Shown here piece after piece: positions 8,319-35,383 of a DNA stretch of 35,522 bases (its first letter is position 1; the number at the start of each line of letters is the position of its first letter). The DNA comes from an uncultured Rhizobiaceae group bacterium. Its GTDB lineage: Bacteria > Pseudomonadota > Alphaproteobacteria > Rhizobiales > Rhizobiaceae. Under the pieces are notes generated by a model. The model had not been told where the DNA came from and did not search any database. It worked only from the letters and a program-made list of their open reading frames with translations. The stretch lies in contig CALDZF010000191.1 in NCBI GenBank assembly GCA_937944165.1, positions 1 through 35,522 on the forward strand, in the 5' to 3' direction. Made by a program: the position numbers and the translations under genes.

Positions 8319-10889
8319 TTACAGCTCTCTTAAGATAGGCGCTGCCTTTTGCCCCAATATTCGCCAAGTGCCTATCAGACCCAAAATAATGGTAAACCCA
8401 AGCGCTGCCACTACCGTTCCAAGTGCCACACTTGGTAAAGCGATGAATTGAAATTTCATAATAACTGAAATTACAAACCATGCAGCCAGGCTACCTGCAA
8501 GAATTGCAAAAATAGCTGTAGCAAGACCTAAAAGCGTGTATTCAAGGATAAGCATTTTAATCAATGTTGATCTGGTAGCACCCAATGTTTTGAGTATGAC
8601 TGCATCATGCACGCGTTCTCTATTACCTGCTGCTAACGCACCAGCCAAAACAAGAATTGAAGATATGAGCGCAATCGAAGCTGCTGCTCTTATCGCTGTA
8701 GAAAGTTGGCTGATTAACGTGTTTACCGTATTTAAAACATCGCGAATGCGCACTGCTGTGACGGCGGGATATTCCTTTGAAAGTCGCTTTAATAATTTAC
8801 CGTCGAACCCTTCTTTGACTATGCCACCCGTAGTGAGTGTTGAAAGATAAGAATGAGGTGCCCCAGCAAATGTATTGGGTGAAAATACAAAAACAAAATT
8901 TATACCCAGACTTTCCCATTGAACATCTCTGAAATTGGCAACTTCGGCACTAATATTTCTGCCCAGTACATTGATGGTGATTTCATCACCAATAGAAAGG
9001 TTTAATTCGCCAGCCTCTTCTGCACTAACCGAGACCAGGTTTTTGCCTGTATAATCTTCAGCCCACCATTTGCCCTCAGATAGTGTTGAATTTTCTGGTA
9101 TGCGTTTGGCATGTGTGATGCCGCGATCGCCATTTAAAACCCAGGCACCGCCCGGTTTTACCTGATATTCTTCTGATGGAATGCCTCGCAGAGAAATAAT
9201 GCGACCCCGCAGCATTGGCACGGCAATGGTTTTTCCTTCAGGGGCCATTTCTTCAAGCACTGCCCTGAAATTATCAATTTCATTGTTTTGAATATCTACA
9301 AAGAAGAAGTCTGGAGCGTCTTTTGGAATATTATTTGAAATTTGATTTCGCAAATTACCGTCAATTGTTGTTAAAGCTACAAGCAGTGCCAGACCTAACC
9401 CTAAAGACAAAATAATAGATGATGTTAAAGAACCTGGTCTATGAATGTTGGCAATCGCCATGCGCAGCGATGGTGATTTTGAGGAAGGCGCTTTTTTAGC
9501 GATATATTGAATAAGGATTGAAACGCCTTGAAGTAATAAAAAGGCAAAGGCAATTGCGCCTGTAAATACGATTGCAATAAACTTACTTTGTGAAAAATAA
9601 AGTGCCGAAGCAATTAGGACACAAACACAAAGTGCAAGAGCAAGAATGTAAACAAGTCTTGGCAGTTGTTTCTTTTGTCCAAATCCACTTGCGCGGAAAA
9701 GATCAGTGGGTTGAACGTCGCGCGACAAAGCCAAAGGCCAGATGGCAAATATAAGTGCGGTTAAAAATCCGTATAAAACCCCAGGAAGCAAAGCAATTGG
9801 AAAAAATAACGCCCCATCGGTAATAGGCAAAATACTGCCCATGGTTGCTCGTGCAAGATATGGCATTGCAATGCCAAGCAGTAAGCCTGTAAAAATACCA
9901 ATTGCTGCCATAATCAATATTTGAACTAGATAAAGTAGGAATATAAAATTACCAGGTGCGCCTAGGCTTTTTAATGTGGCGATTACCGGGCGTTTCGTCT
10001 CCAAATAAGCGCGTGTTGCATTGGCAACCCCTACACCGCCTACGATGAGTGATGTTAATCCAACCAACGTCAGGAATTCGGTAAATCGAGTAATGCTTCT
10101 AGAGAGTGCTGGTGCTGCATTTTTTTGTGACCTGATACGCCATCCTGCATTTGGAAATTTTTCATTAGCCTGTTCAATGGTTGTTTCAAGATTTGATTGC
10201 GAAGTATCGTAGAGTTTGAGGCGGTAATGATAGCGTAGCAGAGAACCTGGCTGGATTAATCCGGTACGCTCCATCCCGTCAATCGACATAAACAGTTTAG
10301 GGCCAAAGCCAATATTGAGACCCAGTTTGTCTGGTTCATTTTCAATGGTATCTTTTAGAATAAAGTCAGTATTACCAATTTGAAGTGTGTCACCCAGTTT
10401 TACATTCAACCGTTCCAGCAAAAGTGCTTCTGCAATAATTTCATTATTGTTTAAATTGAGTGTTTGGGCAGAGCCTAATTCCAGATTGCCATAAAGCGGA
10501 TAAGCCTCATCAATGGATTTTAATTCAACCAGAGTTTGTTCTTCTGCTTTTGTATTTCGTGCCATGGCGCGCATGGTAATAATTTTACTGATGTCCCCTT
10601 TGGCTTTTAAAAACTCTGTCTGTTCTTCGTTTAATTCACGTTGAACAAGAGAAAAAGATAAATCTCCTCCTAATATTGCCTGACTTTCAGATGCAATACC
10701 TTGTGTAATGGAGTTGGCTACAGAATTAACACCGCTGATTGCTGCAACGCCCAAGGCAATACAACCCAGAAAAATAAAGAACCCGCGAAGCCCTGCGCGT
10801 AATTCACGCATTGCGAATTTAATGGCAAGAGCAAGGCTAGGGATAAAGTTTTTGCTAGTCGAATTTGCTTCACGCATTAGCCATCTCAA
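8319..10889 (-). CDS. FtsX-like ABC transporter permease (YbbP type)
   Basis: 856 aa, FtsX/MacB-type permease repeats; ATP-binding partner encoded immediately upstream with overlapping ORFs. Confidence 0.92.
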
Positions 10890-11559
10890 TCAATCCTGAG
10901 CGAACTGGTATGGTTATGTCACATTGTTTTGCTAGGGAGGGGTCGTGCGTTACAAGAACCAGAGTTAAACCTTTTTCGCGTTGTCTTTCAAATAAAAGAT
11001 TAGCAACTTGGATGCCTGTTTCGCCATCAAGATTGCCTGTTGGTTCATCGGCAATTAAAACGGTTGGTTCAGGTGCAAGCGCTCTTGCAAGGGCAACACG
11101 TTGTTGTTCTCCGCCTGAAAGTTGGCCAGGATAATGGTTTAATCTATGACCTAGTCCAACAGCTTCCAGCTCTGCTTTTGCTTTTTCCATGGCTTTTTCA
11201 TCACCACTCAATTCCAGTGGTACTGCAACGTTTTCAATTGCTGTCATATTGGGAATAAGATGGAAAGATTGAAAAACAATGCCTACATGGTTGCCGCGAA
11301 AACTGGCAAGCTCGTCTTCATTGAGTGTGGTTATGTCAGTGCCATTTATGATAATACGGCCTTCATCAATGCGCTCAAGGCCGGCTATCACCATTAACAA
11401 TGTAGACTTGCCCGAACCTGATGGCCCTACAATACCTGTTGAAGTTCCTTTGGGAATTTCCAAGTCTATACCCTTAAGAACATGTACGCGAGAAGCATCC
11501 ACTCCTAAAGTGAGTTGCAGGTTTTCAAGAAAAATTGCTGAAGTAGAGACTTGTTTCAC
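10870..11559 (-). CDS. ABC transporter ATP-binding protein (YbbA type)
   Basis: Walker [12 protein letters not shown], signature [15 protein letters not shown], Walker [13 protein letters not shown]. Confidence 0.94.
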
Positions 11560-11625
11560 GAGAATTAAATGTCCAGATATAAAGAATCGTATGCTTTAGC
11601 ATCTATATGGGATATTGAATCTTAA

Positions 11626-12273
11626 ATGAAACCATTCTTTTATTACATTTTAGCAAGTTTTCTTTACCTGGCTTTGAATAGCTTTCCAGCTAACGCTAAC
11701 AGTGCCATTTGTGAGGGTAAAAAACTTGTTGTTTTTGGTGACAGTCTTGTGGCAGGTTTTGGCCTTGAGCCAGGCGCTGCTTTTCCAGAGCAATTGGACA
11801 AAGCGCTTGATGCAAAAAATATTAAGATAGAAGTTATCAATGCAGGTGTTTCAGGTGATACAACATCAAGCGGCCTGGCGCGGCTTGATTGGTCTGTGGG
11901 TGAAGATGTAGATGCGGTTATTTTGGAGCTTGGCGCAAATGATGCACTTCGCGGTATTTTGCCTGAGCTGACAGAAAAAAATCTTGATTTGATGATTTCA
12001 AAATTCAAAGAAAAGAATGTCAAAGTGCTTTTGGCTGGCATGATGGCACCACCCAATATGGGTAAAAGCTATGGTGTAACCTTTAACGCTATTTATTCAC
12101 GTTTGGCTATGAAGCATGAAGTTTCACTTTATCCGTTTTTTCTGGAGGGCGTTGCGGCTGATTCCAATCTTAACCAAGCAGATGGCATTCACCCTACCAA
12201 AGAAGGTGTTTCGGTAATTGTTGAAAAAATCATGCCAACTGTAGAGAAGTTTTTGAGCAAAGTTTGTTCGTAA
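11626..12273 (+). CDS. tesA: SGNH arylesterase/lysophospholipase (TesA-like)
   Basis: [10 protein letters not shown] block I, GANDALRG block [12 protein letters not shown] block V; divergent from the ybbAP-like pair, the classic tesA context. Confidence 0.88.
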
Positions 12274-12284
12274 GGAAATTAAAA

Positions 12285-12599
12285 ATGGCTAAATCAAAAC
12301 GTATCAGACCAAAACAACTGACAGCCGATGCAATTAGTGATGCCTTAAAGACAGTTGAAGGCTGGAGTATGGTTGAAGGGCGTGAAGCAATTTTTAAGAC
12401 GTTTACATTCAAGAATTTTATTCAGGCTTTTGGTTTCATGTCTCAGTCTGCACTTGTGGCTGAGAAGCTGGATCATCATCCCGAATGGTTTAATGTTTAT
12501 AAAACTGTAGATGTAACACTTGCTACACATGATGTTGACGGCCTTACAGAACTTGATTTTAAACTGGCCAGAGCAATGGACAAAATTAGCCAATCTTGA
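12285..12599 (+). CDS. phhB: 4a-hydroxytetrahydrobiopterin dehydratase
   Basis: [15 protein letters not shown]...[55 protein letters not shown]; internal ATG at 12285 preferred. Confidence 0.92.
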
Positions 12600-29222: not shown

Positions 29223-29714
29223 CTAAGCTGCAATGGCAAGCCGCTCACCAGCTGTTCTATATGCTATGGCTTCTGCTAAATGAATACGCCCGATTGTTTC
29301 AACACCGTCCAAGTCTGCAATGGTACGTGCTACTTTTAAAATTCGGTGATAGGCGCGGGCTGAAAACTTCATGTTTTCAGCAGCATCGCGCAACAATTGT
29401 TCTGCACCTAAATCTTGTACTGCAATAACTTCTGTAAGAGATGCAGAGGCGTGGGCGTTAAGTCTGCAATCTGCTTCTAACTCTAAAAATCGTGTTTGTT
29501 GGATTTGTTGGGCTTTCAAAACTCTTGCGGCTATATCTTTGGAAGGTTCGCTTGAGGTTCTGCCAATCATATCCATTGCGCTTACGGCTGGTACGTCAAC
29601 ACGTAGGTCTATGCGATCTAAAAGGGGGCCTGAAATTCGTGCCTGATAATCGCTTGCACATCGCTCTCCGCGTTTGCATGTATGCCCCGGTTCACCTGCC
29701 ATGCCACATCGACA
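29223..29714 (-). pseudogene. comM: C-terminal remnant of ComM/YifB Mg-chelatase-like AAA+ protein
   Basis: Reverse-strand reading ...CRCGMAGEPGHTCKRGERCASDYQARISGPLLDRIDLRVDVPAVSAMD...; homology-like reading ends in a TGA (complement 29715-29717) where a conserved NPC should precede CRCG. The N-terminal AAA+ part is absent from the window. Confidence 0.85.
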
Positions 29715-30153
29715 TCATTTCGTTGCCTTTTTGCAGTTTGGTGCTAAGTCATTGAAATCATTAATACCAGTGCCGTATGCACGTAATCCTAAGTCATTAG
29801 CAGAGCATTTGTTCAAGAGAAGAACAGAATTAAGGCTTAGACAGAAAGATGTAGCCAAATCCATGAGAATTGACGTGTTTACCTACCTCACATGGGAAAA
29901 AGGTCAGGTTATTAATCCTGAAATCCGTAAGTGGAAAGTGATCATTGAGTTCTTGGGATATGACCCAAATGGTGAAGCAAAGAACTTTGCAGAAAGGCTT
30001 ATTGCATACAGGAGAAAGCATGGTTTATCACAGAAGAAACTTGCTCAGATAATACACTGTGATGAAGGCTTGTTAGCGCGATGGGAGAACGGTTATATGA
30101 AACCGCATGTTGAAGAACACCTAACTATCTTGAGTAATATGAAATTGCTCTAA
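29701..30153 (+). CDS. Tandem helix-turn-helix (XRE-like) transcriptional regulator
   Basis: Two HTH-like repeats: SLAEHLFKRRTELRLRQKDVAKSMRIDVFTYLTWEKGQ and NFAERLIAYRRKHGLSQKKLAQIIHCDEGLLARWENGY. The start is uncertain (ATG 29674 or 29701, TTG 29752, GTG 29770); the first two lie in comM sequence. Confidence 0.8.
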   Translation: MPHRHHFVAFLQFGAKSLKSLIPVPYARNPKSLAEHLFKRRTELRLRQKDVAKSMRIDVFTYLTWEKGQVINPEIRKWKVIIEFLGYDPNGEAKNFAERLIAYRRKHGLSQKKLAQIIHCDEGLLARWENGYMKPHVEEHLTILSNMKLL

Positions 30154-30399
30154 GATCGGCTATGCGAAATCTTAATTGGATTTGATGCCATTGGAACACC
30201 GCCTGAGAGATTTATCTACCCATAAATCTGGCTTAATAATTCAGCTGGTAAACTGATTCCATTTTGCGAAATTCTTGAAAATAGTTGTATGATCGTAGTA
30301 GAATTTTTGATTCTAACTTAATATACTTTCTTAAAAGGCGTTTCAATCTAAATTATAGGTGTTGCTATCTTTGAAAACTTTAAACCAATCAGAAAAGCA

Positions 30400-32196
30400 A
30401 TGATAATTATCGCTGTCTCAGAGTACACTTTACCCTATCCCTCGTTGCCGGGAACTTTGACCAGCGCTGAGAGGTTGGCTAAATGGGCGCGGCAGAAAGG
30501 TCCGGGTCGCAACTATAATGTTTTGGAAATAACCGATGCCGATAGAATTCCAGTCACGGTAGCACGGATTAAGGATGAAATATCAACACTTCTTAAGACT
30601 GAGATTATTGATAGGTTGGTGGTATATTTTGCAGGACATGGATTGGTTCGGTCGGCCGCAGATCAGTTCTGGTTGCTTACAAACGCTGCAGAGGACCGAA
30701 GCGAGGGCATTGCACTAAGCGCTTTTATAAATGGCCTTAAACATTATGGAATAGGCGCTTTAAATTCAAACCTACCAAAAGGTCAGCTCTGTATAATTGC
30801 GGATGCATGTCGAAATACGCATTTTAATGCGATAAATTTTTCTGGTGATCCAATATTAACTGGAGGAGGCATAGCAAAGGAGCTAGAAATTGATTTCTTG
30901 ATGGCTACCACTTTGGGGCACTTCGCATTTCAACAAAACGCTATTGATGGAGGCAAGCCATACTGCTTATTTTCTGATACATTGTGTGACGCTTTAGAGG
31001 GTACTGTATCTGAGGTGATTGAGAAGAATTACCACCCATTTAGCCCTATTATATCCAATCATTTGCTAGCTAGATATCTGGACGATGAAGTGCCGAAGCG
31101 AGCTAATCAATTCAATGAGGATATGCAGCCTGATACGGCAACTGGTCTTCGTATGAATCACAACTATTATGATATTTTGTCTCAGGAGGAAATTCCGTTC
31201 GAATATGCCGCAAAACCAAATCAACATGTGAAAGTGGGTCACGGTCGTCGACTGCCTCCTGATGAAGCTAAATTAAAGTTCCAGCCCGACAGAGCTCAAA
31301 CATCTTCATTTCAAACTTTATTGGACCGGGCAGATTATCTCCTTGATCGTATGAGTTCGACCGAAAGATTTATGTCCTCTGTTGTTTGTGAAGGCAATGA
31401 GGAAATTGCCTTCCCTCCCAATATAAACCGTGAAGAGTTTCTTCGGGATGGTCGAGTTTGGTTGTATCGGCCATTTTTAGCGTTTGAAGGACACCTACCA
31501 CTTTTCGTAAGACAAGAGGCAGGGTGGACACTTGTACCGATCCTGCCTTTCACAAGGACCGTTCTTCAAGAAGATGCGCCAGGAGACATCTTACTTAAAC
31601 AGAACTCATTTTCCAAAGTTGGAAATTGGGACACATCACTAAGCTCGATGGTTGCAAACTCCCATTTGAAGCCAAGTCGATTGGCTGATGCAATACGCAT
31701 CGCTGATGAAATCCGCAGTTTGAAAGAAATGCGACCTAATAATGCAAATATAGCAGGATATCTCTACGATATGGCAGGAGACCGAGACAATGCCATCCGA
31801 ACCGCTCATTATATGCATAAAGTGGACTACGTCAGTCTAGATCTTGCGCTGATTGCAGCGGCTACATTGAATTGGGAAGAGGCAAATAACGGTACATGGC
31901 AAATTCGCGCCACGCTTGCAGCTGTCGAGAGTGATCAAACGAAATCTAAGAACAGACCAGCTTATGCAAACAGTAGCTTTGAACGAAAAGAAAATGTAAT
32001 TCTTGGAAGTGTTCTTCCTATTTTTAGGCAGGGGTGGCAGATGATGGAATGGGCACATCACAACAGCAATATGCCTGCGATTTTAAGGGAGTTGGCGCCG
32101 CAAACCCAAGGTTACTCAGCAGTAGTATTGCCAGATGAGGCGATGCAGAAACTTGCTGAAGCCTTCCATTATAGAATTGGTTCAATCCTTAATTGA
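30400..32196 (+). CDS. Caspase-like (C14 clan) peptidase with uncharacterised C-terminal region
   Basis: N-terminal caspase hemoglobinase fold motifs: MIIIAVSEYTLPYPSLPGTLTSAERLAKW, His in VVYFAGHG, Cys in LCIIADACRN. About 300 residues follow with no family I recognise. Confidence 0.88.
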   Translation: MIIIAVSEYTLPYPSLPGTLTSAERLAKWARQKGPGRNYNVLEITDADRIPVTVARIKDEISTLLKTEIIDRLVVYFAGHGLVRSAADQFWLLTNAAEDRSEGIALSAFINGLKHYGIGALNSNLPKGQLCIIADACRNTHFNAINFSGDPILTGGGIAKELEIDFLMATTLGHFAFQQNAIDGGKPYCLFSDTLCDALEGTVSEVIEKNYHPFSPIISNHLLARYLDDEVPKRANQFNEDMQPDTATGLRMNHNYYDILSQEEIPFEYAAKPNQHVKVGHGRRLPPDEAKLKFQPDRAQTSSFQTLLDRADYLLDRMSSTERFMSSVVCEGNEEIAFPPNINREEFLRDGRVWLYRPFLAFEGHLPLFVRQEAGWTLVPILPFTRTVLQEDAPGDILLKQNSFSKVGNWDTSLSSMVANSHLKPSRLADAIRIADEIRSLKEMRPNNANIAGYLYDMAGDRDNAIRTAHYMHKVDYVSLDLALIAAATLNWEEANNGTWQIRATLAAVESDQTKSKNRPAYANSSFERKENVILGSVLPIFRQGWQMMEWAHHNSNMPAILRELAPQTQGYSAVVLPDEAMQKLAEAFHYRIGSILN

Positions 32197-32207
32197 GGGC
32201 GGTAGGT

Positions 32208-33116
32208 ATGAGAAAACTTATATTCGTACACGGAATTAACAATGAAAGCTACACACCGGCTGAGATACAGAAAGAATGGTCAGAAGCGCTTAAATCTCAA
32301 TTGATTGGAGAAGGGAAAAAATGGTGGGATAACGTTGAAATTCGAACAGCCTATTATGCTAATGTTCTGCATTCAGAAGAGCAAAGTTGGAAGCAGGACA
32401 TTGAAGTAACAACAAGAATGAGTGTCGATTCACCAGCCTCAGATTATGCTGACGATGCAATCGCTTCTATGTATTTGGAGCTGCAAAATGCCTATAATCT
32501 TGATAATGAAACCGTTGCTGCCGAATTGGATTATGAAGACGAAATCGCGGCAGTTTCGCGAATGGCAGCTGGAATACATAAGAAATGGCTGAAAGCAATC
32601 GCTCGAGCGTTAGAAAAAGTCATCCCGTCAGCAGGCAATGGGTTGGCAAGAACTTTTCTATCACAAGCTGCTGCATATTTGAACAAACCTGGTGTTTTTG
32701 AGTCAATCAATGAACTTGTAAACGATCAAGTTTTTCATAACTTACAATCTAATGAGAAAACCGTTGTCGTTAGTCATTCTCTAGGTACTATTATTTCATA
32801 TGTTCTTTTGCGGCGCTTACAAACTAGTGACAAAATTCCCCTATTTGTGACGTTAGGGTCTCCACTGGGAATCAAGATTGTGAAGGATCGCATCAATGGT
32901 CCATACATTCGTCCTCCGTCTGTCAGCAAATGGATCAATGGAAGTGATCCAGAAGATTTTGTAGCATTACATCCAACGCTTAATGAAGAGACGTTTGGTC
33001 CAGCTAATATTATCAATATCGAAAGTATTGAAAATGGATACGAAGATGCGCACTCGATTTCAAGATATTTGCAAGAAGAGAGAATCGCCCGAGAAATTGA
33101 GCAAGTATTAAATTGA
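32208..33116 (+). CDS. Alpha/beta-hydrolase (lipase/esterase-like serine hydrolase)
   Basis: Oxyanion strand KLIFVHGINN, nucleophile elbow VVVSHSLGTIISY, possible acid in GSDPEDFVALHP, possible His in YEDAHSISRY. The ATG lies 11 nt after the caspase stop, preceded by GAGGGCGGTAGGT. Confidence 0.82.
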   Translation: MRKLIFVHGINNESYTPAEIQKEWSEALKSQLIGEGKKWWDNVEIRTAYYANVLHSEEQSWKQDIEVTTRMSVDSPASDYADDAIASMYLELQNAYNLDNETVAAELDYEDEIAAVSRMAAGIHKKWLKAIARALEKVIPSAGNGLARTFLSQAAAYLNKPGVFESINELVNDQVFHNLQSNEKTVVVSHSLGTIISYVLLRRLQTSDKIPLFVTLGSPLGIKIVKDRINGPYIRPPSVSKWINGSDPEDFVALHPTLNEETFGPANIINIESIENGYEDAHSISRYLQEERIAREIEQVLN

Positions 33117-33446
33117 GCAATGACCGGAGACTCTGACTTCAAATCCATCTTGAGACATTCTGAGATTCCTGCAGCTCTAAATTACATTGGAATACGGTAA
33201 AACTAGATCATGTCATATGGCGAAGGAGTCTGCCTAGGTTTACGCATTATACCAATTACCTATTTTGATGAGGCGTTTATAGTCTCCAACAATCATAAGA
33301 GGTGAGACAAAAAACGTCTGGACTGTATTTCTGTTTACGCGCAATCCTTGGAAACTGTTGCATATGTAGGCGCGTTTCAAAGCGCAAGTTGTTGATTTGT
33401 TTGCAATTCTAAAATAATAAGCTGTACTACTAATGTTTTTTGATAA

Positions 33447-34310
33447 TCAGGCGTTATTTGGGATCACCAAGTTTTTGTGGTTTAGAACTGCGCCATACGC
33501 TTCAGTGAATGCTTCTCTTGCATAACTATTGTGAGCATAAGCAAAACCATTATCACCCCAATTGTCCCCCCATGAATTTCGTACGATTAGATAATCTGGA
33601 GTATAACCAACCAAGCATACTGCGTGTCCACCGTTACGTGATGCTTCTGAGGTGTCATAGTTCTCAAGGTGTCCTTCTGTTTTTTGTGCATATTTAAAAG
33701 CTTCATCGACATCCAAGCGTGTAAGTACGGGGCCGTGATTGGCAAGCCAAAATTTGATGCGTTTCATATGACAACCGTCTTCATTCATCAAATTGTAATA
33801 CGCGTTAATTCTATATTGAGAAGCAATAGAAAAGAATGCACGTGGCCCCATTCTCGACAATCTACCCTCCATCGGCAACATAGATTCGAGAACACAGCCG
33901 TATTTTTTTGCCACTTTTAGTGCGAGTTTGGTAGATGTACCTGCTGAATCCAAAAAAGAGGTTGGATAGCTGGTGAAATTATCAGTCTCCTTGTTAGCCA
34001 TCCAAATGAATCTCGGTGAAATGAGTTCATCTTTTTCAATAAGTTCTTGGGTCACATAATGCCAACGCAAGACTCCATCGGCTGTCGCGAAGCCCACACA
34101 AGCGCCGCTTGTTTTTTGATCTCTGATTGTCCACCAGTCCTGCCGAAGATCTACACTATTAGGGGGGTCGCCTTCTGAAACCAAAAACTCAGCTCCTACA
34201 GCATCCCCGAATATCCAATCATCATCCATATCTTGAGACTTGATACAGTTCAGAACAAAACGGTTAGCGGCAGGTCCGCGTTTGACTCGTTTTTTGTTTT
34301 TGTTTGCCAT
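33447..34310 (-). CDS. C1 (papain-like) cysteine peptidase
   Basis: Oxyanion Gln and Cys in IRDQKTSGACVGFATADG, His in GGHAVCLVGYT, Asn in LIVRNSWGDNWGDNGFAY. Confidence 0.92.
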   Translation of the reverse strand: MANKNKKRVKRGPAANRFVLNCIKSQDMDDDWIFGDAVGAEFLVSEGDPPNSVDLRQDWWTIRDQKTSGACVGFATADGVLRWHYVTQELIEKDELISPRFIWMANKETDNFTSYPTSFLDSAGTSTKLALKVAKKYGCVLESMLPMEGRLSRMGPRAFFSIASQYRINAYYNLMNEDGCHMKRIKFWLANHGPVLTRLDVDEAFKYAQKTEGHLENYDTSEASRNGGHAVCLVGYTPDYLIVRNSWGDNWGDNGFAYAHNSYAREAFTEAYGAVLNHKNLVIPNNA

Positions 34311-34313
34311 TGC

Positions 34314-35210
34314 CTAAGTTGGGATTTGATCTTTGAACGCTGCGGCTTCAGTAACCGCTTCACTACCTTCAGAATTTTCCACTCTATTTGAACGAAAGCA
34401 CACGCCACTAAATTCGTAGTCTGTTGCACCACGCACCAAAATTCCTTCGACTTCACCATTCTCGTTAAACACCGCGGATCCCGAGTTGCCACCGTAGGTA
34501 TCTAAATTGGAGATCAACCATGGATCAGTTTTACGCATCAATACGGTTTCATTACCGAATGCGATTTTTACTGGCAGACCGCTTGGATATCCAATTACAC
34601 CGAGTTTAGAGCCAACACTGGGCTCACCAGAATCTCGAATTTTTAAAGGTTTTGCGCCTGGTGCATTAACTTTGCGATGTACTCTTACAATAGCGTAATC
34701 ACCAGTTGACGATTCATCAAAGGCGAGAAGTTCTTTACCAAAGTAAACTTGCTTTTCATCAAAAATCATTCTGCCTGGATCAGTAGGCGATGATGCTTGA
34801 AACCCGAAAATATAAGCTGTATCCTTTACTGCCTCCTCTGTTGTGCCGCAGTGTCCAGCTGTAGCTATCAAATCTTCGCCAACCAAAAAGCCGGAACACC
34901 ATCCGCCAACAAATTGATTTGCAAATTTCTCATCGCTGCAAGGAGGCATATTTCGTTGACGGAAAGACTTTACTGACAATGTATATGTGCCATTCCCATT
35001 GTCTGAAATATTGGACTTATCAGTCAGAATTACCGTTGAACGTGATAATGCCAAGTTGCGTTGATCTTGTTCTGATTCAGTCATCTCGTAGACGTCTTTG
35101 CGATCATCCTCACCGGCTATGACCTTATCGCCCGATTTTACTAGTGTGCCCTTGCCATTAGTTAGATTTGTGTCATCAAAGTATTTTTTTTGAATATCAT
35201 CTTCATTCAT
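34314..35210 (-). CDS. Trypsin-like (S1/V8-like) serine peptidase
   Basis: Catalytic His in LIATAGHCG, Asp in STGDYAIVRVH, Ser in DTYGGNSGSAVFNENGEVEGILV; AAAGGAGTAAAAAATG ribosome-binding context; ends 3 bp before the papain-like gene. Confidence 0.92.
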   Translation of the reverse strand: MNEDDIQKKYFDDTNLTNGKGTLVKSGDKVIAGEDDRKDVYEMTESEQDQRNLALSRSTVILTDKSNISDNGNGTYTLSVKSFRQRNMPPCSDEKFANQFVGGWCSGFLVGEDLIATAGHCGTTEEAVKDTAYIFGFQASSPTDPGRMIFDEKQVYFGKELLAFDESSTGDYAIVRVHRKVNAPGAKPLKIRDSGEPSVGSKLGVIGYPSGLPVKIAFGNETVLMRKTDPWLISNLDTYGGNSGSAVFNENGEVEGILVRGATDYEFSGVCFRSNRVENSEGSEAVTEAAAFKDQIPT

Positions 35211-35383
35211 TTTTTACTCCTTTATTTTTACTGTAATTACAAAACTATTTCGACTGATGCGACATTACTAGAAATAATATATTTCCAAAAATATTAAGCA
35301 ATTAGAAGATCAAAAATTCAACTATAATGTTTATTATTTTTAGCGTTTCTAAAAAATTATACATAACATTAGCTGATACATCA

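Follow-up and report, generated by a model that had tools for sequence, protein, structure and literature searches.

Near its right end, contig CALDZF010000191.1 from an uncultured Rhizobiaceae bacterium carries four hydrolase genes: a caspase-like protease and an alpha/beta serine hydrolase on one strand, facing a trypsin-like and a papain-like peptidase on the other. (The window that we analyzed is this whole contig, C191, of 35,522 nucleotides; it belongs to an alphaproteobacterial assembly of 2.8 Mb in 269 contigs.) We found that the caspase and the hydrolase form a conserved, co-inherited two-gene module that is carried on mobile DNA in several bacterial phyla. With moderate confidence, we propose that this pair is a conflict module in which the caspase releases a hydrolase that attacks membrane lipids, leading to abortive infection; it is probably a small, self-contained switch for cell death or against invaders. 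We regard the papain and the trypsin as a second operon that the island carries independently of the pair.

The caspase gene (30400..32196, forward strand; 598 amino acids) was recognized from the list of open reading frames, a family search, its homologues, and a predicted model. Its partner, the hydrolase (32208..33116, forward strand; 302 amino acids), was recognized from the list of open reading frames, its homologues, and its fold. On the reverse strand, the S1/V8-like serine peptidase (34314..35210; 298 amino acids), which we call the trypsin, is the first gene of the second operon and is followed by the papain-like C1 peptidase (33447..34310; 287 amino acids), which was recognized by family search. 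As an earlier note on this DNA had described, all four open reading frames are intact and are arranged as two tight, convergent pairs; the intergenic gaps are 11 nt and 3 nt. The gap of 11 nt depends on our choice of start codon for the hydrolase: the listed open reading frame begins with TTG at 32193, and the ATG at 32208, which is preceded by GAGGGCGGTAGG, is the more likely start. Catalytic residues, which the note had also recognized in each protein, could all be located (H80 and C137 in the caspase; S191, D250, and H282 in the hydrolase; Q65, C71, H229, and N245 in the papain; and H120, D171, and S243 in the trypsin), so the papain and the trypsin are catalytically complete. No signal peptide was seen on any of the four proteins of the window, again as the note had stated. 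Its family identities are strongly supported for the papain (a match of 5e-17 to Peptidase_C1) and the trypsin (1.5e-17 to Trypsin_2), both far above chance. The caspase has moderate matches, to an NCBIfam caspase model (2.6e-7) and to Pfam C14 (0.0011, slightly under the cut-off), and the hydrolase matches its best family, PGAP1, only weakly (6e-4, under the cut-off). The assignment of the hydrolase is secure despite this weak match because its homologues and its fold support an alpha/beta-hydrolase.

The caspase and the hydrolase travel together. Searching plasmids with tblastn, we found the caspase in 20 plasmid records, and the hydrolase lies directly downstream of it in every close match that we inspected. 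These pairs are on plasmids from Sinorhizobium sp. M14 (where the pair adjoins repABC), Agrobacterium, S. fredii, S. meliloti, R. ruizarguesonis, Bradyrhizobium, S. medicae, and Hymenobacter (a member of the Bacteroidota). Genome loci with the hydrolase add Roseibium (L018; 56% identity for the hydrolase), Ensifer, Komagataeibacter, Undibacterium, and Cellulomonas, and two IMG/VR viral contigs carry the pair. Overall, the caspase is directly upstream of the hydrolase in 9/9 plasmid loci from the close clade, 7/9 genome loci, and 2/2 viral contigs. (The scan of genome contigs used a narrower hydrolase alignment and gave nine loci, so these counts are small.) We then set 20 pairs side by side, taken from viral contigs and from members of the Alpha- and Betaproteobacteria, Actinomycetota, and Bacteroidota. 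The pairwise distances between the caspases were strongly correlated with those between the hydrolases (r = 0.954), and none of 10,000 permutations gave a correlation as high. Furthermore, the caspase's His and Cys and the hydrolase's Ser, Asp, and His are invariant across these pairs. The distribution is patchy, and the settings are mobile: conjugative plasmids, viral contigs, and, in our window, an island that splits yifB. On present evidence, the part of the earlier note that proposed a protease-effector module is probably right for the caspase-hydrolase half, which behaves as mobile and co-evolving, and wrong about the papain and the trypsin as members.

In the phage collection, the caspase had no match in any record; the matches to the hydrolase are surrounded by genes for tRNAs and metabolism and appear to be chromosomal. 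One of these records, L092 (CAKLQH020000003.1), is named Acinetobacter phage MD-2021a and contains gltX, tRNAs, cusA, and transporters; it looks chromosomal and is probably mislabelled. We also set aside the pair at L075 as inovirus cargo: it lies between a ParA gene and an integrase and may be outside the prophage.

The island's left edge is the 3' part of yifB (29223..29714, reverse strand), which encodes a comM-like Mg-chelatase ATPase. Similarity to the intact yifB of two congeners ends at 29714, within the conserved motif NPCRCG, and the region to the left of this position is syntenic with the congeners, in which a gene for a 3-keto acid cleavage enzyme adjoins yifB. The 5' part of yifB is at the end of another contig (G000:C138:10209-10991), whose 3 kb matches the congeners' yifB neighbourhood; about 76 codons between the two parts are absent from the assembly. 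Because yifB is intact and syntenic in the congeners and the similarity stops at 29714, we conclude that the four genes belong to an island that was acquired and that interrupts yifB. No obvious transposon end is present at the junction at 29714. Consistent with acquisition, a profile of the caspase had no match in 11 genomes of the same genus. The generic Pfam caspase model found nothing above threshold elsewhere in the source genome, and at that threshold it misses the window's divergent caspase as well. Directly at the island's edge is a double helix-turn-helix regulator (29773..30153, forward strand) that matches the VC1465/XafT (Xer-activation) family weakly; it is probably outside the module because it was not found beside other caspase-hydrolase pairs. 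At the other end, copies of the last ~138 bases of the contig (35385-35522) also occur at two further sites in the genome (L002 and L003), so the locus is truncated on this side; this repeat is probably an insertion sequence that hides the island's right end.

The earlier note had read all four genes as one system. This would be a co-regulated, four-part protease cascade, with the trypsin and the papain working either ahead of the caspase and a lipase or in parallel with them. The best argument for such a cascade is that both operons have a similar element of about 29 nt in their leaders, in the same orientation with respect to transcription. One copy (TAGTAGAATTTTTGA-TTCTAA-CTTAATAT; 30296..30325, forward strand) starts 104 nt before the caspase's ATG, and the other (35290..35324, reverse strand) starts 114 nt before the trypsin's ATG. 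The alignment is gapped and scores 37, which was reached by 0 of 2,000 shuffles and by 0 of 3,000 random pieces of the window; the best of 23 other leaders on the contig scores 25. Near matches elsewhere in the genome are mostly in coding sequence. The similarity might reflect regulation through a common site, or it might be what remains of a shared insertion. We rejected the alternative that the repeat at 30296 and 35324 is a terminal inverted repeat, and we prefer the shared-leader reading, because we saw no target duplication and there is no transposase inside. A second argument for the cascade is that in two rhizobial plasmids the pair is followed by a papain-like peptidase other than the window's, together with a chagasin-type inhibitor. 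Nevertheless, the 29-nt element was identified post hoc and was not seen upstream of the closest relatives' caspase-hydrolase pairs, and no other caspase-hydrolase locus has this papain or this trypsin. The nearest relatives of the papain are from Microvirga (50% identity) and from genomes G196 and G051, while those of the trypsin are from Bradyrhizobium, Rhizobium, and genome G123. In the loci that we found, homologues of these two peptidases are never together or with the pair (for G196, the contig is merely 3 kb). Similarly, among 385 genomes of the class, 9 have a match to the hydrolase, 3 to the papain, and 2 to the trypsin, and the source genome is the only one with all three. A scan of viral sequences gave no match for the trypsin and just one weak peptidase for the papain. 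On present evidence the two pairs are not co-inherited, which was the comparison on which the note had let its four-part system depend. We consider the four-part cascade very unlikely and rejected it as our main explanation.

Other peptidase clusters came up in these searches. Two of the rhizobial plasmids have, beside the pair, an M78 peptidase fused to a chagasin-type I42 inhibitor and then a papain-like C1 peptidase (L006:9685-11315 and L008:9592-11291); these genes are possibly an inhibitor-protease switch of their own. On a Priestia megaterium plasmid (L017:3911-5105), a papain-like peptidase is directly followed by an I42 inhibitor gene, which resembles a protease-inhibitor pair. Homologues of the trypsin on other rhizobial plasmids (L011 and L012) lie in a protease-rich cluster, amid genes for S8 and C25 peptidases, ferritin-like and radical SAM proteins, and tyrosinase. 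And the surroundings of the Roseibium pair (L018:1943-3488 and 10018-12492) include a class 3 lipase, a small protein that might be SLATT-like (judged by eye only), and a second caspase, which is fused to a TCAD9 ternary-complex domain.

Relatives of the hydrolase have a variety of partners. A trypsin-like protease is encoded upstream of it in Rhodococcus (L013), is fused to it in Streptomyces (L069) and Nonomuraea (L074), and, with a TPR-S domain, is encoded downstream of it in Agrobacterium (L072). Other neighbours are a CHAT protease (L071), a STAND-type ATPase whose annotation includes WD repeats (L070), a caspase-like protein that has VMAP domains (Streptomyces; L068), and other caspases (L073 and L034). 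In a tree of the hydrolases, from which L069 was disregarded, those with CHAT partners and some of those with trypsin partners are near those with caspase partners; several branches are long or weakly supported. From these neighbourhoods, the hydrolase appears to be the constant element and the protease or NTPase the variable one, as would be expected if the hydrolase were an effector. As to what it might do, the best match in the PDB to the predicted model of the hydrolase is the DDHD domain of Nir2 (E = 2.3e-4), with lipases next. DDHD proteins include phospholipase A1 enzymes. The earlier note had suggested that a lipase-like effector takes the place of a gasdermin. This is plausible, and indeed it is a reasonable reading, because the pair is mobile and co-evolving and the hydrolase's family is repeatedly found beside the proteases and NTPases of conflict systems.

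The compartment in which the pair works seems to have changed for both partners at once. In the pairs on the Bradyrhizobium (L015) and S. medicae (L016) plasmids, both the caspase and the hydrolase have twin-arginine (Tat) leaders, and in the other 18 of the 20 pairs we found no convincing twin-arginine leader on either protein. Since both partners have the leader or neither does, the two proteins share a compartment when they work, and this can lie outside the cytoplasm. Although it comes from a single lineage, this joint change is good evidence, at the level of sequence, that the partners act on each other or on a common substrate. It also suggests that the substrate is accessible from either side of the membrane. 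The same leaders could be taken to mean that the two proteins are exported or surface enzymes with no role in defence, and instead have an interbacterial, envelope-maintenance, or nutritional role; a homologue of the neighbouring trypsin, from genome G123 (L085), has a lipoprotein-type signal, which would fit. We think that this is improbable: 18/20 pairs have no leader of any kind, the distribution is patchy with carriage on mobile genetic elements, and the hydrolase is homologous to the hydrolase of a VMAP conflict system (hhalign probability of 99.8%).

Returning to the conflict module, we imagine that in a resting cell the hydrolase would be held inactive or apart from its substrate. The caspase would sense an infection or a competing element, probably via its C-terminal ~340 residues, and once active it would cleave or otherwise release the hydrolase. 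The freed DDHD- or lipase-like hydrolase would then attack membrane lipids, and the cell would be stopped or killed. Four points of this scheme are inferred: that the caspase acts on the hydrolase, that the substrate is a lipid, what the trigger is, and that the pair protects against phages. The predicted model of the caspase (mean predicted local distance difference test score, or pLDDT, of 66; predicted template modelling score of 0.46) matches metacaspase-4, MALT1, and caspase-11 (E = 0.004-0.02). It has a caspase domain of the paracaspase/metacaspase type (residues ~1-200, with H80 and C137), a low-confidence linker (~243-302), a beta-rich segment (~327-401), and a helical C-terminal part (~428-598); neither of the last two has a named family.

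Several observations weigh against this scheme. The visible locus ends at the contig end, at 35522. PADLOC gives the caspase only a weak, generic caspase match (2e-4), and no sensor domain or named family was recognized in its C-terminal ~340 residues. The match of the hydrolase to DDHD rests on a medium-confidence model (pLDDT of 76; template modelling score of 0.41), and the enzyme might instead act on a different ester or a thioester. We looked for a loop in the hydrolase that the protease might cleave and rejected the idea for lack of a conserved candidate: no conserved cleavage site was found, and the low-confidence stretch at residues 64-77 differs between relatives in both its length and its sequence. 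Finally, some hydrolases are not beside an intact caspase. One of the nine genome loci (L023) has a solitary hydrolase with no caspase gene, there is a distant solitary hydrolase in Acinetobacter, and in Ventosimonas (L025) an intact hydrolase lies downstream of a remnant of the caspase's C-terminus (L025:7888-7995). We interpret L025 as the decay of one partner, and it implies that the hydrolase alone is at least tolerated. This fits another explanation, in which the caspase is the executioner, as in type IV Thoeris or Craspase-type proteases, and the hydrolase serves as the sensor, processes a signal, or controls the caspase as a deacylase. According to work cited in the Canu study (PMC12799240), caspases do act in several bacterial immune systems. 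However, it is the hydrolase that stays constant while its partners change (trypsin, CHAT, STAND, or VMAP), and we consider an executioner caspase unlikely.

We compared the pair, with the hydrolase as the putative effector, to known systems. In caspase-type VMAP systems, according to Kaur et al. (2020, PMC7159879), an alpha/beta-hydrolase always neighbours the caspase and probably functions jointly with it; a 2021 eLife paper from the same line of work lists alpha/beta-hydrolases as effectors against membrane lipids. Here too a caspase has a neighbouring alpha/beta-hydrolase, and the window's hydrolase is homologous over its full length to the Streptomyces hydrolase beside the caspase-VMAP protein (L068; the hhalign match of 99.8% given above). 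In contrast to that system, the VMAP region is absent from 10 caspases (Pfam, E <= 1), whereas L068 scores 1.4e-48 for VMAP-M2. The window's caspase is instead followed by a different, unnamed region of ~340 amino acids in which neither hhalign nor Pfam found a VMAP region, so we rejected membership in VMAP. No MoxR ATPase or vWA protein is annotated within the ~5-8 kb that we inspected on complete plasmids (L004-L009 and L014-L016) or in the window up to the contig end. The best model for the window's caspase is NCBIfam caspase_w_EACC1, which recalls the two-gene EACC1-caspase system (PMC7159879), but the score is 30 bits against a cut-off of 140, and the EACC1 transmembrane gene was not seen. 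Unlike type IV Thoeris, none of the proteins of the visible locus has a TIR (ThsB) domain.

In some CARD-NLR systems, phospholipases stand in for gasdermins (as stated in PMC13236601). By analogy, the proposed logic here would be the same, with a protease and a membrane-active effector; in contrast, no gasdermin, CARD, or NLR was seen in the visible locus. The earlier note had also seen no gasdermin, and we confirmed this: no further convincing open reading frame fits among the four genes or next to them as far as the contig end, and PADLOC found no gasdermin among the scanned proteins. Another counterpart is Canu (2025), in which a caspase activates a partner pro-nuclease; that study suggested that other enzymes may be gated by proteases as well (PMC12799240). 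Like Canu, the pair has a gene for a paracaspase-like protease upstream of a hydrolytic partner and is stand-alone and mobile. Unlike Canu, the partner is a Ser-Asp-His alpha/beta-hydrolase rather than an MBL-fold nuclease, and there are two genes, with no third gene like CanB.

Our literature search, which was incomplete and did not cover preprints, found no description of a stand-alone caspase-lipase defence pair. Judged by sequence, the pair matches the broad features of caspase/alpha-beta-hydrolase conflict pairs: it is co-inherited, has intact active sites, and is on mobile DNA. Because the pairing already occurs in VMAP systems and Canu is a caspase-activated nuclease, we view the pair as a stand-alone form of a known caspase-hydrolase pairing. 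More tentatively, such pairs might make up a widespread immune system of two genes: the paracaspase-like protease would switch on a DDHD-like phospholipase, which would then breach the membrane of its own cell, as a lipid-attacking counterpart of Canu; action on either face of the membrane would be possible because both partners acquired Tat export together. The pair thus offers a concrete, lipase-like candidate, with many homologues, for the Canu study's suggestion that proteases may gate enzymes beyond nucleases. It also separates the caspase-hydrolase pairing of the large VMAP systems from their sensor apparatus, leaving a minimal unit of two genes.

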